Positions 3,512-10,591 of a stretch of DNA of 10,591 nt are shown here, piece after piece. The DNA comes from Nitrospirae bacterium RBG_19FT_COMBO_42_15. Lineage in GTDB: Bacteria; Nitrospirota; CAKKRA01; 9FT-COMBO-42-15. The notes under the pieces are model-generated. The model had not been told where the DNA came from. It did no database searches and saw nothing but the letters and a program-made list of their open reading frames with translations. The stretch is taken from the NCBI GenBank assembly GCA_001803815.1, contig MHEL01000055.1:1-10591 (forward strand), read 5' to 3'. Each line of letters starts with the position of its first letter. Position 1 is the first letter of the stretch. Both the position numbers and the translations under genes were made by a program.

Positions 3512-3559
3512 ATAAGAACACCCTCGTTTATAATTAAAATTAAATTAGGAAAATGATTG

Positions 3560-5194
3560 ATGGCTCGGATTAATAAAGAGAAAAAAAACCAAAACAATGA
3601 ACCGTTAGAAAAGAAGCTCTGGAAGGCTGCAGACAAGCTGCGGAAGAATATGGACGCCGCAGAATACAAGCATGTTGCTTTAGGCTTAATCTTCCTGAAA
3701 TATATCTCCGACGCCTTTGAAGAACTCTATCAAAAACTTAAAGAAGGCAAAGGCGCTTATGAAGGCGCAGACTCCGAAGATAAAAACGAATATACCGCTG
3801 AGAAAGTCTTTTATGTGCCGCCGTCCGCGCGTTGGAACTGGCTGCAAGGCAGGGCAAAACTTCCGACCATTGGCAAGGATGTTGACGATGCAATGGATGC
3901 GATTGAAAAGGACAATCCTTCTCTCAGAGGAGTATTGCCAAAGGTTTATGCGCAGGAAAAGTTAGACAAGCAAAGTCTTGGCGGTTTAATAGACCTTATA
4001 GGCAGCGCAGCACTCGGCACAAAAGAGGCGCAGAGCAAAGATGTATTAGGCAAGGTTTATGAATACTTCCTTGGTGAGTTTGCCTTGGCTGAAGGCAAAA
4101 AGGGCGGACAATTTTATACGCCTTCAAGTGTTGTAAAACTGCTTGTTGAAATGCTTGAACCTTACGAGGGCAGGGTATTTGACCCTTGCTGCGGTTCAGG
4201 CGGTATGTTTGTGCAGAGTGAAAAGTTTGTAGAGGCGCACAGGGATTACTATAAGAAAAAGAAAAACGGGTTGTCCCTTAATCCGGCAGATCGCATCTCA
4301 ATTTACGGACAGGAAAGCAATCAGACAACATGGCGTCTGGCAAAGATGAACCTTGCAATCCGCCATATAGACAGCAGTAATGTGAAATGGAACAACGAAG
4401 GCTCGTTTCTCAATGACGCTCACAAAGACCTGAAGGCTGATTACATCATCGCTAAACCGCCATTTAACGACAGCGACTGGAGCGGAGACCTGCTTCAAAA
4501 TGACGCCCGCTGGAGCGTACTCGGACAGAAACTCCCGCCCCCGCCGAATAATGCAAATTACGCATGGATACAGCACTTCCTATATCACATTGCGCCGACA
4601 GGCATGGCAGGGTTTGTATTAGCGAAAGGTTCGCTGACGACCAAGACCAATAACGAAGGCGAGATACGCAAAGCAATGGTTGAGAACGACCTGATTGATT
4701 GCATCGTAAATCTTCCGACAAAGTTATTTCTTAATACTCAAATACCCGCATGCCTCTGGTTCATTCGCCGGAATAAGCAGAAAAGAAAGGGAGAGATTCT
4801 CTTCATAGACGCCCGCAATATGGGCTATTTAATCAACCGCAGAAACAGGGACTTGTCCGATGAAGACATCGCCTTAATTGCAGGCACATATCACAACTGG
4901 CGCACCACCTCCTCCACCCCTCTCCCTCTGGGAGAGGGCAAGGGTGAGGGTATCTACAAGGATGTGCAGGGCTTCTGCAAGTCAGCGGCATTGGATGAAG
5001 TAAAGGCATTGAATTATGTATTGACACCCGGCAGATACATCGGCTTGCCTGATGATGAAGATGATTTTAATTTTGCGGAGAGGTTTAATGCGTTGAAAGC
5101 TGAACTGGAAAAGCAGATAGCAGAAGAAGCGGAATTGAACAAAGCTATTGTGCAGAACCTTGCGAAGATTGAGGTAAAGGGATATGACAAATAG
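3560..5194 (+). CDS. hsdM: Type I R-M DNA methyltransferase subunit HsdM
   Basis: A 544-residue adenine-N6 methyltransferase that, with HsdS, modifies the recognition site using S-adenosylmethionine. Residues about 13-165 are the helical HsdM N-terminal domain ([26 protein letters not shown]). The catalytic N6-MTase domain follows: [14 protein letters not shown], the SAM-binding motif [10 protein letters not shown] (208-217), and motif IV at 298-303, which reads AKPPFN. Lys299 stands where Asn or Asp is usual. Residues about 449-463 carry a palindromic-repeat-encoded stretch ([13 protein letters not shown]) in a surface-loop position. The C-terminal helix (505-540) should contact HsdS. The ATG at 3560 is preferred over the TTG at 3557, because AGGA at 3547-3550 lies 9 nt before it. 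The gene overlaps the next one by 11 nt. Confidence 0.95.
4915..4950. repeat. GC-rich palindromic repeat inside hsdM
   Basis: Perfect 9-bp arms CCCTCTCCC (4918-4926) and GGGAGAGGG (4930-4938) enclose a 3-nt loop. They are flanked by CACCC (4915-4919) and GGGTG (4942-4946), which are also complementary. It is read in frame as [11 protein letters not shown]. The style matches dispersed REP-like elements that produce PLPxGEG peptides in many bacterial proteins (from memory). Confidence 0.75.
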
Positions 5195-6338
5195 CAAGCA
5201 TCCAAAAAAATCAGTAGATAAGGCACTTACAGGTTTTCAACCTGCAATGCGAAGAGAGTTTTATTGGAGCATTGCCGAAATACTCCAGACAGCAAGGCAG
5301 AATGCTTATCGTGCCGTCAACTTCGCAATGGTTGAGGCATATTGGAGTGTCGGGAAATTGATTGTTGAAGAGGAACAGAGTGGGAAGCAAAGAGCAGATT
5401 ATGGAAGCAGCCTGATTAAAAACCTTTCGGTCAGGCTGACTGAAGATTTTGGAAAGGGCTTCTCTGAACAAAGTTTATGGAATATGCGGCTGTTTTACCT
5501 TAGGTTTCCAATTCTCTCCTCACTGCGGAGAGAATTGACATGGACGCACTACAAAATGCTTTTGCGGGTGGAAAATGAAAAAGCCCGGGATTATTATATT
5601 AGTGAAACAGCAGAGCAGAACTGGAGCGTTCGCACATTAGAACGTCAGGTAAACTCACTCTATTATGAGCGTCTTTTGACAAGCAGGAACAAAAAGCCTG
5701 TAATCAAAGAGATGAAGGAAAAGACCGCTCCTCTTACCCCAACGCCGCAGGATTTCATAAAAGACCCCTATGTCCTTGAGTTTCTGGGGATGCCCGATGT
5801 TACCCAATTTCGGGAGTCCGAACTTGAGCAGGCTATTATTGATAAACTGAGGGAGTTCATTCTTGAACTGGGCAAAGGGTTCGCCTTTGTTGCACGGCAG
5901 CAGAGGATAAATACCGAGACATCTGAATTTTACATAGACCTCGTCTTTTATAATTACCTCCTCAAATGTTTTGTGATCATTGACCTCAAGACCGGAAAGC
6001 TCACCCATCAAGACATCGGACAGATGGATATGTACGTCAGGCTTTATGAAGATACCTTTAAAGGTGAAGACGACAATCCGACCATAGGCATTATCCTTTG
6101 CACCGAAAAAGACCATACAGTTGCCAAATACTCCGTGCTAAATGAAAGCCGCCGGTTGTTTGCTTCTAAATACAAACTCTACCTGCCTACAGAGGAAGAA
6201 TTAGCACGGGAAGTAGAGCGGGAAAAGGCGCTCCTGACAAGGGAAATGAAAGCGAGAGGCAAAAGCAGCCGCACATCTCAGCCGAAGATTGTTAAGGCAA
6301 AAAAACAGCCGAAAAAAATGAAGGTGAGTAATGAGTGA
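5184..6338 (+). CDS. DUF1016/YhcG-family PD-(D/E)XK nuclease
   Basis: A 384-residue protein with two recognisable parts. Residues about 22-175 form the helical DUF1016 N-terminal domain ([46 protein letters not shown]). Residues about 190-345 form the nuclease domain ([37 protein letters not shown]). The probable PD-(D/E)XK residues are Asp252 and Asp267-x-Lys269, with a Glu near 213-215. The tail (350-384) is Lys/Arg-rich and may bind nucleic acid. It sits between hsdM and hsdS, overlapping them by 11 and 8 nt, a context in which this family is often found. A role in DNA cleavage or recombination linked to the R-M system is inferred; the exact substrate is unknown. Confidence 0.9.
5509..5537. 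repeat. 11-bp perfect inverted repeat within the DUF1016 gene
   Basis: CAATTCTCTCC (5509-5519) and GGAGAGAATTG (5527-5537) are perfect reverse complements around a 7-nt loop. The encoded segment [10 protein letters not shown] follows the normal family layout with no obvious extra length, so this looks like a hairpin in ordinary coding sequence rather than an insertion. Confidence 0.6.
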
Positions 6339-7515
6339 GTGGAAGGGATATAAATTCTCTGATTTTGTGAACATCAATCCACCTGTAAAACTGATAAATG
6401 GGGAGCAATATTCTTATGTAGAAATGAAGGATTTGAGCGATGGACAAAGGCATTGTTCCCCAAGTATTGAACGAGAATTAACAGGCGGTGCAAGATTCAA
6501 TGACGGCGACACGTTGTTTGCACGAATTACTCCCTGCCTTGAAAATGGGAAAATATGTCAAGTAACAGGTTTGAAGAACGGCACAGGGTTTGGCTCCACA
6601 GAATTTTTTGTTTTCAGGGGTAAGAAGGATATTTCAGATAATGACTTTGCTTTTTACTTATCAAGATGGGATGAAGTAAGAGCATTTGCGGAAATGAATT
6701 TTGACGGCACATCTGGGAGACAAAGAGTGCCGAAAGATGCTTTCAATAACCTGTTTTTGAACTTGCCTGATTTACCCGAACAAAAATCCATCGCCTCAAT
6801 TCTCAGCAGTCTTGACGACAAGATAGACCTCCTCCACCGCCAGAACAAGACCCTTGAGGCATCAGCAGAGACGCTGTTCAGGCAGTGGTTTATTGAGGCT
6901 GCACCTCAACCCTCACCTCACCTCTCCCATGGGGAGAGGGATAATGCGGAGGAGGGGTGGGAGACGGGGAAGTTGGGGGATGTGATAGAGCTTGTTTATG
7001 GCAAGGGTTTAAAAGAAGAAATTAGAACGGGAAAAGGATTCCCTGTTGTTGGATCGAGCGGCATTGTTGGACATCATTCTGAGTTTTTGGTTGAAGGGCC
7101 TGGCATTGTTATTGGCAGAAAGGGCACACTCGGAAAGGTAATTTATCTTTTTGAAAATTTCTTCCCCATTGATACGACCTATTTTATTAAATCAAGAGTT
7201 AATTCAGTCGGCTTATTTTATGAATATTTTCTTTTAAAGACATTGAATTTTGAAGAGATGAATACAGATTCAGCGGTTCCTGGCCTTAATAGGGAGCTTG
7301 CACTTTCTACTGAAATCAAAGTTGCTCCATTTGATAAATTAAAACAGTACAACGGCTATTGTGCTTCTCTATTTGAAAAACTTAAACAAAATAACTCTCA
7401 GATCCGCACCCTCGCCCGCCTGCGGGATACGCTGCTGCCGAAGCTGATGAGCGGTGAAGTGAGAGGGAAGGATTCGGAGAGGGGTGGGGAGAAGATAAAT
7501 ATAAAAACTGTATAA
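6331..7515 (+). CDS. hsdS: Type I R-M specificity subunit HsdS
   Basis: A 394-residue subunit that reads the bipartite target for HsdM and HsdR. The layout is TRD1 (about 1-145, ending FLNLPDLPEQKSIA), a central conserved coiled coil (about 147-190, LDDKIDLLHRQNKTLEA then ETLFRQWF), a linker (191-211), TRD2 (about 212-335, GKLGDVIELVYGKGLK and GIVIGRKGTLGKV) and a distal coiled coil (about 336-377, ending LRDTLLPKLMSGEV). Both half-site readers are present, so it should recognise a split sequence; which one cannot be predicted here. The start codon lies within ATGAGTGA, overlapping the preceding gene by 8 nt. The linker and the last 17 residues are encoded by G-rich repeat sequence and are probably not functional parts of the fold. 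Confidence 0.94.
   Translation: MSEWKGYKFSDFVNINPPVKLINGEQYSYVEMKDLSDGQRHCSPSIERELTGGARFNDGDTLFARITPCLENGKICQVTGLKNGTGFGSTEFFVFRGKKDISDNDFAFYLSRWDEVRAFAEMNFDGTSGRQRVPKDAFNNLFLNLPDLPEQKSIASILSSLDDKIDLLHRQNKTLEASAETLFRQWFIEAAPQPSPHLSHGERDNAEEGWETGKLGDVIELVYGKGLKEEIRTGKGFPVVGSSGIVGHHSEFLVEGPGIVIGRKGTLGKVIYLFENFFPIDTTYFIKSRVNSVGLFYEYFLLKTLNFEEMNTDSAVPGLNRELALSTEIKVAPFDKLKQYNGYCASLFEKLKQNNSQIRTLARLRDTLLPKLMSGEVRGKDSERGGEKINIKTV
6911..6965. repeat. GC-rich palindromic repeat inside the hsdS linker
   Basis: Perfect arms CCTCTCCC (6921-6928) and GGGAGAGG (6932-6939) enclose a 3-nt loop. The core is preceded by CCTCACCTCA and followed by a G-rich tail with GGAGGAGGGGTGGGAG. It is read in frame as PSPHLSHGERDNAEEGW, between the central coiled coil and TRD2. 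It shares the core arms and style with the hsdM element. Confidence 0.75.
7461..7494. repeat. Half copy of the same repeat at the 3' end of hsdS
   Basis: GAGAGGGAAGGATTCGGAG and the following GGGGTGGGGAG align with the right half of the linker repeat (GAGAGGGATAATGCGGAGG, then AGGGGTGGGAG) apart from small differences. No left arm is present. It encodes the final Arg/Gly/Glu-rich tail of HsdS. Confidence 0.5.
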
Positions 7516-9164: not shown

Positions 9165-9845
9165 ATGGACAATAAATCCCTAAAACCAAAATCAACCCTC
9201 ATCCCGCCTCACGGCGGATACCGCAGTCTGAAGAGCTATCAGATTGCACAGCTTGTTTATGATGTGACGGTTCGGTTTTGCGACCGCTATGTGGATAAAA
9301 AATCACGGACGCATGACCAGATGGTTCAGGCTGCGCGGAGCGGGGTTCAGAACATTGCCGAGGGGAGTCAGGCTTCCGGCACATCCAAAAAGACCGAGTT
9401 GAAACTGACAAATGTGGCGCGCGCCAGCCTTGAAGAGCTGCGCCTTGATTATGAAGATTATTTGCGCCAGAGGGGTTTGCTGCTCTGGACGCGGGAAGAC
9501 CCCCGCCGTGCAGAACTAATCGCACGGCGTCTGACAACTGCAGATGCAGTTGCAGAATGGGTGAAGGAAGCGCATAAGCAGGAGCAGAAGAAAGAAAATG
9601 GACGCTATAGACAGAATGGACAACAGATTGGACGGGTTGAAAAGTCCGTTGAGTCCACAAAGCCCACTTTGTCCACAATGTCCACTTTCCCTGAAATCGC
9701 GGCTAATGCCGCTTTGGTTTTGATCGCGGTTGCCTGCAGCCTGCTAAATCGCCAATTGGCGGCGCAGGCTACTGCATTTGAAAATGAGGGCGGGTTCACT
9801 GAAAGGCTTTATCAGGCGCGAATACAGGCAAGAAAAACAAAATGA
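9165..9845 (+). CDS. Four-helix-bundle protein with four-helix suffix domain
   Basis: A 226-residue protein. Residues about 19-135 match the four-helix-bundle family related to proteins encoded in 23S rRNA intervening sequences (YRSLKSYQIAQLVYD, QMVQAARSGVQNIAEGS, ASLEELRLDYEDYL). Residues about 175-222 match the short suffix domain often attached to it (LNRQLAAQATAFENEGGFTE). The linker (about 144-174) is encoded by short repeats and looks variable. The biochemical role of the family is unknown; the bundle resembles a scaffold or binding module, not an enzyme. AAGGA at 9152-9156 is 8 nt before the ATG. The gene is more G/C-rich than the two before it. Its stop overlaps the hsdR start (ATGA), so hsdR translation probably depends on it. 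Confidence 0.85.
   Translation: MDNKSLKPKSTLIPPHGGYRSLKSYQIAQLVYDVTVRFCDRYVDKKSRTHDQMVQAARSGVQNIAEGSQASGTSKKTELKLTNVARASLEELRLDYEDYLRQRGLLLWTREDPRRAELIARRLTTADAVAEWVKEAHKQEQKKENGRYRQNGQQIGRVEKSVESTKPTLSTMSTFPEIAANAALVLIAVACSLLNRQLAAQATAFENEGGFTERLYQARIQARKTK
9598..9687. repeat. Two facing arrays of 9-bp repeats in the linker of the four-helix-bundle gene
   Basis: On the right, five 9-bp units run from 9643 to 9687: AGTCCGTTG, AGTCCACAA, AGCCCACTT, TGTCCACAA and TGTCCACTT. On the left (9598-9633), degenerate units carry the reverse complement core, RTGGAC, with the same spacing for the first three (9598, 9607, 9616). The period keeps the frame, giving tripeptide repeats such as LST MST. Confidence 0.75.
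9738..9770. repeat. Nested inverted repeat near the end of the four-helix-bundle gene
   Basis: A 12-bp perfect palindrome CGCCAATTGGCG (9750-9761) is nested between AGCCTGC (9738-9744) and GCAGGCT (9764-9770). It lies in the suffix domain, which keeps its usual pattern, so no insertion is implied. Confidence 0.6.
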
Positions 9846-10591
9846 CTAAAATTACTGAAACCAACATCGAAACCTTTGCCATCGAAACGCTCCAGTTTCT
9901 GGGCTGGGAGTATGTTCACGGCCTCGCTATTGCTCCCGGCGCAGAACATGCGGAAAGGGAAGGTTTTGAGCAAATAATCTTAACGCATCGCTTACGTAAG
10001 GCTGTTGCACGGTTAAATCCCAATATTCCGACAGATGCACAGGAACAGGCTGTGCAAAAGGTCTTGCGTGTTTATTCCCCTGATTTGCTGCACAACAACG
10101 AGACCTTTCACAAATTCTTAGTTGAGAAAATAAAAATCCCTTATCAGCAGGATGGCTATGAAAGAAGTTATGAAGTAAGCCTGATTGATTTCAGCCATCC
10201 GTCCAACAATGAATTCTTAGCAGTCAATCAATATACAATTATTGAGAATAATCAAAACAAGCGGCCTGATGTCTTGCTCTTTATCAACGGCATTCCGCTT
10301 GTAGTAATTGAATTAAAAAATGCGGCGGATGAAAACGCCACTGTCAGAAAGGCCTTTGACCAGATACAGACCTACAAAGCCGCTATCCCAAGCCTGTTTA
10401 CCTATAATGCCGTTTGTGTGATTTCAGACGGCATGGAATGCAGGGCAGGGAGTCTTTCAGCAGGGTTCAGCCGCTACATGACATGGCCTGTCTGCGTGCG
10501 GACACGCACAGGCAGAAAAAGAGCAGACAGTTATTATGTGTATGTAATAGAATGTGATAATGACAGTTACTACATAGGTCAAACATCGGAT
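9842..10591 (+). CDS. hsdR: Type I R-M restriction subunit HsdR, 3'-partial, with foreign segment
   Basis: The first 250 codons of the DNA-cleaving and translocating subunit, open to the window end. Residues about 5-210 are the HSDR_N nuclease domain: LQFLGWEYVHG, RPDVLLFINGIPLVVIELKN with the PD-(D/E)XK residues Asp143 and Glu157-x-Lys159, FDQIQTYK, and SDGMECRAGSLSAGFSRYMTW. The helicase would follow after the window. From Pro216 the expected family sequence is lost: residues 216-230 are encoded by a palindromic repeat, and 231-250 look like the start of a GIY-YIG domain. Either the enzyme carries an inserted domain or the gene is split. The ATG overlaps the preceding stop in ATGA and has no strong ribosome site of its own, pointing to coupling. 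Confidence 0.92.
   Translation, partial: MTKITETNIETFAIETLQFLGWEYVHGLAIAPGAEHAEREGFEQIILTHRLRKAVARLNPNIPTDAQEQAVQKVLRVYSPDLLHNNETFHKFLVEKIKIPYQQDGYERSYEVSLIDFSHPSNNEFLAVNQYTIIENNQNKRPDVLLFINGIPLVVIELKNAADENATVRKAFDQIQTYKAAIPSLFTYNAVCVISDGMECRAGSLSAGFSRYMTWPVCVRTRTGRKRADSYYVYVIECDNDSYYIGQTSD
10486..10530. repeat. Palindromic repeat in hsdR at the point of divergence
   Basis: GCCTGTCTGCGTG (10486-10498) pairs with CACGCACAGGC (10503-10513) apart from a 2-nt bulge, with CGGA as the loop. A second, overlapping pairing joins CTGTCTGC (10488-10495) to GCAGACAG (10523-10530). It is read as PVCVRTRTGRKRADS. It differs in sequence from the hsdM and hsdS elements. Confidence 0.7.
10532..10591 (+). other. 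Start of a GIY-YIG nuclease-like domain fused in the hsdR frame
   Basis: Residues 231-250 read YYVYVIECDNDSYYIGQTSD. This matches the beginning of small UvrC-like GIY-YIG nucleases: a Y-V-Y-V-I strand at the GIY position, a short acidic turn, then Y-Y-I-G-Q-T. The catalytic Arg and Glu would lie beyond the window, so activity cannot be judged. Confidence 0.6.

Follow-up and report, generated by a model that had tools for sequence, protein, structure and literature searches.

A GIY-YIG nuclease cassette and a palindromic repeat in frame within hsdR: a probable selfish element carried inside host proteins

Introduction

Nicking or cleavage of DNA is the known activity of GIY-YIG domains. The Rickettsia palindromic elements are short palindromes placed in frame within protein-coding genes; we know of no nuclease-bearing partner for them and, to our knowledge, the way in which in-frame palindromic repeats spread has stayed an open question since they were described. 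REPs lie between genes, and the RAYT enzyme is an HUH transposase.

A GIY-YIG domain inside an HsdR protein has been described in MCA0838 of Methylococcus capsulatus, where it lies at about residue 800. The insertion is reported to be missing from a Deinococcus geothermalis homologue of 80% identity and is termed unique, and the question is raised whether other GIY-YIG proteins could be parasites (Dunin-Horkawicz et al., 2006; PMC1564403). According to the accessible part of a second source, GIY-YIG insertion sequences dissimilar to group I or II introns occur in the rRNA genes of CPR bacteria, and its authors see their spread as lying outside homing (PMC11270868). The accessible part of a third has no bearing on the subject of this study (PMC12455944). 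A search of open-access literature gave no description of such a cassette as an element.

The stretch of DNA analysed here (the window, 10,591 nt) is the first part of contig L015 (17,544 bp) of a draft genome of 1.57 Mb that is 65.6% complete, and its hsdR gene, too, has a GIY-YIG domain within its reading frame.

Results

The hsdR frame and its continuation

The features of the window are collected in Table 1. Its palindrome, CCTGTCTGCGTGCGGACACGCACAGGCAGA, is 30 nt long and lies in the hsdR reading frame. Because the window stops inside the nuclease domain, residues 231-250 of the frame cover just positions 1-22 of the GIY-YIG profile in a Pfam scan and score below the cut-off. Past the window the contig continues with 69 N, then EELNTREEAVKRESDLKTGFGRKWIKREIAAGR, then HsdR up to its stop, with a second gap of 114 N in the helicase portion. 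The first gap is spanned in frame by P0002, an HsdR from a separate contig of 5309 bp. Its first 250 residues are exactly those of the window; it bridges the gap with 28 residues (IEKRWKEHITGNAAKWTKSHKPVKIIHY) and then continues as the downstream half of the contig, with one residue differing at readable positions up to its own last residues. The sample from which P0002 came may be the same as that of the window. Given the 28 bridging residues, a gap of 83 nt is expected instead of 69, and the frame is kept.

Table 1. Positions of features in the window and, where indicated, on the remainder of its contig
Feature	Position	Strand	Remarks
hsdM, same type I system	3557..5194	+	N6_Mtase, HsdM_N
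Second palindrome family, hsdM copy	4918-4938		
YhcG/DUF1016 PDDEXK nuclease gene	5184-6338		between hsdM and hsdS
hsdS, same type I system	6331..7515	+	Methylase_S
Second palindrome family, hsdS copy	6921-6940		
Gene with 23S rRNA intervening-sequence protein domain	9165-9845		between hsdS and hsdR
hsdR 5' part, 250 codons	9842..10591	+	still open at window end; stop at contig position 13397
HSDR_N domain, residues 4-209	9851..10468	+	PF04313, E 1.6e-51
In-frame palindrome, peptide PVCVRTRTGR, between host codons W and K	10487..10516	+	predicted hairpin
Five host-like codons KRADS, spacer between palindrome and nuclease	10517..10531	+	KSADG in most empty HsdRs
GIY-YIG domain start (YYVYVIECDNDSYYIGQTSD)	10532..10591	+	domain end at contig 10662-10760, past N gap
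Second palindrome family, hsdR copy	contig L015, about 10914-10946		

The protein is recognisable as HsdR from HSDR_N in the window, PF18766 and PF04851 in P0002, and TIGR00348 above its cut-off; PF01541 (GIY-YIG) is also among the Pfam domains of P0002. By comparison with P0002, the hsdR frame runs uninterrupted from HSDR_N through GIY-YIG to the helicase. Splitting of hsdR by the insert is ruled out, P0002 being a single open frame. In an AlphaFold model of P0002 (60 sequences; mean pLDDT 67.6, pTM 0.49), block means are 86-92 at residues 231-310 and below 50 at residues 215-228, which hold the palindrome peptide, and 318-328; such a compact nuclease domain suggests that the host protein may still work. 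A scan of Rfam, confined to the window among all the loci, found no family there at gathering score. As a separate observation, 65 bp of the gene between hsdS and hsdR recur on contig C33 at 85% identity.

Filled and empty HsdR sites

A search with residues 1-218 of P0002 (8000 candidates scored, 7998 found) provided the best 120 HsdR relatives, of which 117 are without the nuclease and three carry GIY-YIG (P0002 itself, P0010 and P0005); the nearest empty HsdRs among the matches listed are 93, 92 and 90% identical over these residues. The empty-site alignment comprised 12 inserted or empty homologues beside P0002, among them the empty P0084 and P0085 (94 and 91% identical to P0002 in alignment A2). 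Empty proteins read MTW-KSADGKKE-ASRF or near, and P0002 reads MTW, the palindrome peptide PVCVRTRTGR, KRADS, the GIY-YIG domain with a 13-residue tail, and ASRF. Each of the 12 either has the insert or lacks residues 216-225 and about 231-324 and keeps the few codons between. The HsdR site thus holds two inserts, palindrome and nuclease, five codons apart.

The first-pass annotation, made from the window, had seen the hsdR frame pass through the palindrome into a GIY-YIG-like domain and had raised the possibility of a second nuclease fold between the HsdR nuclease and helicase. Contig extension and P0002 bear out both points, with GIY-YIG followed by helicase in each. The conserved Arg and Glu residues to be looked for downstream are present, and none of the 12 aligned homologues runs through residues 216-250. 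The proposed order of palindrome and nuclease start also stands, but not their direct contiguity, since about five host codons (KRADS) separate them.

Palindrome and nuclease occur together: the palindrome peptide is found in 56 of the 58 nuclease-bearing HsdR rows (P0002-P0059; two are truncated and begin within the cassette) and in none of the 117 nuclease-free homologues from the best 120, two sets that stem from searches with different aims and are not random samples. At the DNA level, across 11 loci including the window contig, the palindrome is identical or almost so in different phyla. Its mean identity is 99% over the 21 pairs with equal-length palindromes, against 71% for 240 nt of hsdR upstream and 73% for the 75-nt nuclease start in the same pairs (L061, a near copy of L054, was kept out of the pairs, and L063 and L085, with altered palindromes, out of the comparison altogether). 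HsdR-site inserts have no regular CCTGCCTG ends; a distinct palindrome is present on the left only, with the 13-residue tail on the right. They may therefore represent a fixed domain that spreads through ordinary recombination of hsd genes.

Two further features of hsd genes were observed. A second palindrome family (CCTCTCCC...GGGAGAGGG) lies in frame in all three hsd genes of the window's system, with the peptides PLPLGEG, PSPHLSHGER and PSPNGRG, and its hsdR copy replaces about nine residues present in the empty homologue P0084. Six HsdRs (P0004, P0019, P0027, P0034, P0037 and P0099) have a second in-frame nuclease domain, PF04480, which we take to be DUF559/VSR-like; in P0004 the repeat peptide PPLEGW stands ahead of it, and the two are perhaps another type of cassette.

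Cassettes in unrelated genes

Genome contigs scanned with twelve cassettes (A1) yielded 76 loci, comprising 66 embedded in a longer open frame (at least 159 aa), nine free-standing and one broken (L104). The free-standing loci (L105-L113) are of a diverged type without cassette ends, in stop-to-stop frames of 61-156 aa. By pattern match, 36 loci have both regular ends, CCTGCCTGCGCCGCG and CGCGGCAGGCAGG, which form an inverted repeat that is absent from the HsdR-site group; the other 40 are 12 HsdR-site loci, the nine free-standing, the one broken and 18 with altered or cut ends. All 36 are a multiple of three in length (267-324 bp, with 282 bp in 18 of them), have their first base at host codon position three and form an open frame throughout, so that none qualifies as a group I or II intron. 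The two bases to the left, over 35 distinct sites, are GA (23), GG (9), CA (2) and AA (1). Among 24 cassettes of exactly 282 bp (L041, a copy of L040, was dropped), synonymous difference is 0.87 inside the cassette, close to saturation, and 0.32 at the terminal codons, which shows that the ends are conserved as DNA. A simple motif test found a start codon with a ribosome-binding motif within the first 20 codons in none of the 66 embedded cassettes.

At the protein level, a search for long proteins sharing the C-terminal half of the nuclease gave 82 matches among 118 candidates, 58 of them HsdR proteins or pieces and 24 of them other proteins. The latter include AlaRS, trigger factor, DnaG and RNase R (identified by Pfam and solved homologues), a putative LeuRS recognised on reading its sequence, an integrase, HsdS, DUF1156 methylases and SNF2 helicases. 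In 17 of the 24, the insert measures 94 residues and typically reads LPAPRP...GRARQAG. Insertion is exact in DnaG, where residues 220 and 317 of P0062 flank residues 208 and 210 of 2au3, and in RNase R, where residues 215 and 307 of P0068 flank 278 and 276 of 8cdu; a 5-residue linker remains in AlaRS relative to its solved homologue, and placement is less sharp in trigger factor. Pfam naming of hosts covered 29 of the 66 embedded ORFs, all 29 with PF01541 above cut-off. The hosts named were several HsdR types, HsdM, HsdS, DUF1156, SNF2 helicases, Type ISP, N4 methylases, Eco57I, AbiEii, Fic, RibD_C, radical-SAM (ELP3-like), SelR (MsrB), MGMT and TrmD. Counted by eye from junction peptides, there are about 40 separate host-gene sites. 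Six alignment columns of GIY-YIG (Tyr, Tyr, Gly, Arg, His and Glu) are conserved in at least 109 of 111 cases, and we take the Tyr, Arg and Glu columns to be catalytic. The product resembles UPF0213 proteins and is a putative GIY-YIG nuclease. The LeuRS-like protein (P0060, 1247 aa) has, besides its GIY-YIG cassette, domains that we presume from their Pfam names to be hydrolase-type and NUDIX (PF00293).

Against this background, the view that a GIY-YIG domain in HsdR would be exceptional falls, the same arrangement being present in 58 HsdR proteins or pieces. The suggestion that palindrome and GIY-YIG form a mobile unit holds for landing in frame, close relatives lying in frame in many unrelated genes, and not for a split of hsdR.

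Clean insertion and copy number

An empty allele is available for the cassette at L055, which lies in an EcoEI-type HsdR gene. In the Nitrospira genus of this locus, 14 of the 59 genomes searched (that of L055 included) have a match to the HsdR. Five copies are 94-95% identical as proteins, with the match ending at residues 871-874, where the cassette starts. When the L055 flanks are joined in silico, the empty loci L249 and L250 match at 95% and continuously across the junction; at this one site 282 bp have been gained with no target duplication beyond a single ambiguous base. L057 has a cassette at the same place. L251-L253 (76-77% identical at the junction) and L254-L257 (68-73%) are less informative, several having small gaps at or near it.

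In 48 genomes selected for carrying a cassette, 50 matches exceed 94 bits, 49 of them in stop-free frames of 159-1288 aa; that in G146 is interrupted by a stop. There is one match of this strength in 46 of the 48 carriers and two each in G121 and G133, which speaks for slow movement. The other matches do not exceed 77 bits, and their frames are short, 185 aa at most, apart from that of a partial match in G121, which lies in a 668-aa frame and is probably a third cassette. Copies are present in the genomes of two isolates, Tangfeifania diversioriginum DSM 27063 (L075) and Pleomorphovibrio marinus SW125 (L097). In the window's own genome (65.6% complete) we found neither a further cassette copy nor the second palindrome-GIY-YIG pair that had been envisaged, and 98 related genomes had no close copy (best match 30.9 bits). 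No cassette was detected in a scan of viral contigs, and the 21 plasmid and 23 phage records with matches, all below 60% identity and none over 80% of the query, contain more distant GIY-YIG genes only.

Trees of nuclease and host

The nucleases of the HsdR site group in a single clade (46 of 120 rows, SH-aLRT 87) in a tree that started from 147 domains before thinning and has few columns and many unresolved forks. The other cassettes group by host site, with 12 changes for 12 groups against a shuffled mean of 42.7. In an HsdR tree from which the insert columns were removed, with 37 of 56 inserted and 37 of 107 empty rows left after thinning, presence and absence of the insert need at least seven changes. 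A 34-row tree again gave seven and rejected a single insert clade (p-AU 7e-44, LG+G4), a value to be read with caution, since the selection of rows followed inspection of the first tree and hsd genes recombine. Filled and empty alleles are spread patchily over the host tree, as with homing endonucleases. Homing predicts one insert lineage that re-enters one site in several host lineages, as these trees suggest; repeated loss, or replacement through recombination, may also produce patchy presence.

Short palindromes with cassette-like ends

Nuclease-free palindromes are also found. The pattern CCTGCCTGCG-N(1-31)-CGGCAGGCAGG gave 50 matches (two overlapping) in 19 of the 48 carrier genomes, and its reversed control gave none. 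Length was divisible by three in 28 of 30 distinct short palindromes inspected and, across all loci, in 56 of 58 of type A and 57 of 62 of type B, the type of the window's palindrome (113 of 120 together); copies lying 60 nt or less from the end of a locus are excluded from these counts, which may include copies that share descent. The short palindromes are found in every phase and in either orientation, and regular-end nuclease cassettes in one phase only. Both findings fit elements that must be read through. Stop-free frames of at least 150 aa surround 55 of 58 type A palindromes (random places, 1037 of 1160) and 50 of 62 of type B (random, 1045 of 1240), so that short palindromes are no commoner in long frames than random places are and divisibility by three is the only informative measure. 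To the left of 58 short palindromes the two bases are most often GG (9), CG (8), TC (7), CA (7), CC (6) and GA (6); since these lack a GR preference, that of the cassettes may reflect only codons that fit the frame. Viral contigs hold 28 stretches with type A and 44 with type B palindromes, and the window's own genome holds the window palindrome and one shorter copy, CCTGCCTGCGGCAGGCAG. With their cassette-like ends, the short palindromes look like non-autonomous derivatives.

Two loci may be noted for themselves. G133 has 15 short palindrome copies, and one DUF1156 frame of this genome (L087) combines a cassette with several short palindromes, one nested in another. In L156 a short palindrome lies in an AtpD-like frame, so named from its peptide and not from a profile.

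Discussion

Insertion of the cassette is exact and in frame, its phase is fixed, its ends are conserved as DNA, filled and empty alleles exist, and it recurs across phyla. We consider it probable that the window holds one copy of a selfish in-frame nuclease element, and would class this as a homing-type selfish nuclease that moves by homing with occasional transposition, a movement that we infer. The GIY-YIG nuclease would be made as an in-frame domain of a host protein, without a start codon of its own, its expression being paid for by host translation, and the host's function would be tolerated because the nuclease folds separately on flexible linkers in a permissive loop. The fused nuclease may then nick or cut empty alleles, and repair would copy the cassette into the cut allele, which amounts to homing at an established site. 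The palindromic ends could serve the nuclease as a recognition or repair structure and, rarely, allow insertion at a fresh location in a different gene; the short palindromes that share these ends would be moved by the nuclease cassette. We regard as evenly balanced the broader proposal of an autonomous cassette that needs neither splicing nor a start, exists only as a host-protein domain, moves short palindromes, and has reached many phyla and essential genes without damaging them. Many hosts are restriction genes that are often exchanged themselves, and this counts against reading the cassette as an element.

A rival reading is a functional fusion, in which the second nuclease helps HsdR in restriction and is retained for that: one site is conserved in HsdRs of several phyla, linker peptide and active-site-type residues are conserved, and restriction or defence genes are many of the other hosts too. 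However, the same type of nuclease is found in AlaRS, DnaG, RNase R, trigger factor, TrmD, MsrB and MGMT, the palindrome is conserved as DNA and not just as peptide, and all but three of the best 120 HsdR relatives do without the nuclease, so that we think this explanation unlikely. We would give rather little credence to passive insertion, by which another agent moves a family of in-frame palindromes that once acquired a GIY-YIG gene and the nuclease is idle in movement. It would readily accommodate the nuclease-free palindromes of 19 carrier genomes, their lengths in multiples of three and their presence on viral contigs, in which no cassette was found, but a mere passenger would not need a nuclease whose conserved residues have been retained over long divergence.

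Inteins and bypass elements exist, and RNA folding predicts pairing between the two ends in four cassettes, so that one may imagine removal of the cassette from the product by protein splicing or ribosomal skipping of a hairpin, which would leave a normal host protein. Inteins need Cys or Ser at their start and Asn at their end, whereas 21 of 24 cassette rows begin with Leu and end with Gly (the other three are delimited differently or end in Arg); intein splicing residues were not found at the ends in the 24 rows compared, and no intein family was reported at E 1e-5 in the Pfam scan of 29 host ORFs. Skipping, for its part, would require neither an open frame nor lengths divisible by three, which all 36 regular-end cassettes have, and we hold removal from the product to be very improbable. 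A chimaera of metagenome assembly is scarcely credible: the window copy does cross an N gap in an incomplete draft, and P0002 may derive from the same sample, but P0002 bridges the gap on a separate contig, copies occur in two isolates, and many assemblies have one at this HsdR site.

The selfish-element reading has consequences for how such nucleases are carried. Known selfish nucleases hide in introns or inteins that remove themselves, and this cassette seems to remain in the finished protein, even in hosts such as the replication primase or a tRNA synthetase. It is a candidate engine for in-frame palindromic repeats, for whose spread exact empty and filled sites are now at hand. If the nuclease drives movement, this class of element is new.

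MCA0838 resembles the window in having GIY-YIG in HsdR, a likeness drawn from description and not from aligned sequences; the word palindrome is absent from the text of that study, and the passages available to us name neither another such host nor an element (PMC1564403). The CPR inserts, likewise compared by description from part of the source, lie in rRNA genes, whereas the cassette lies in protein genes (PMC11270868). Homing endonucleases, whether in introns, in inteins or free-standing, share with the cassette a small nuclease gene, allele-specific occupancy and a scattered presence over the host tree. The cassette differs from them in being read within the host protein, with no intron, intein or expression signals of its own found. 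The REP/RAYT systems also have short palindromes whose related enzyme gene lies elsewhere, but the cassettes lie in open reading frames and encode a GIY-YIG enzyme. The Rickettsia palindromic elements, again compared by description rather than by sequence and belonging to other bacteria, are short palindromes placed in frame within protein genes, as the repeats reported here may be.
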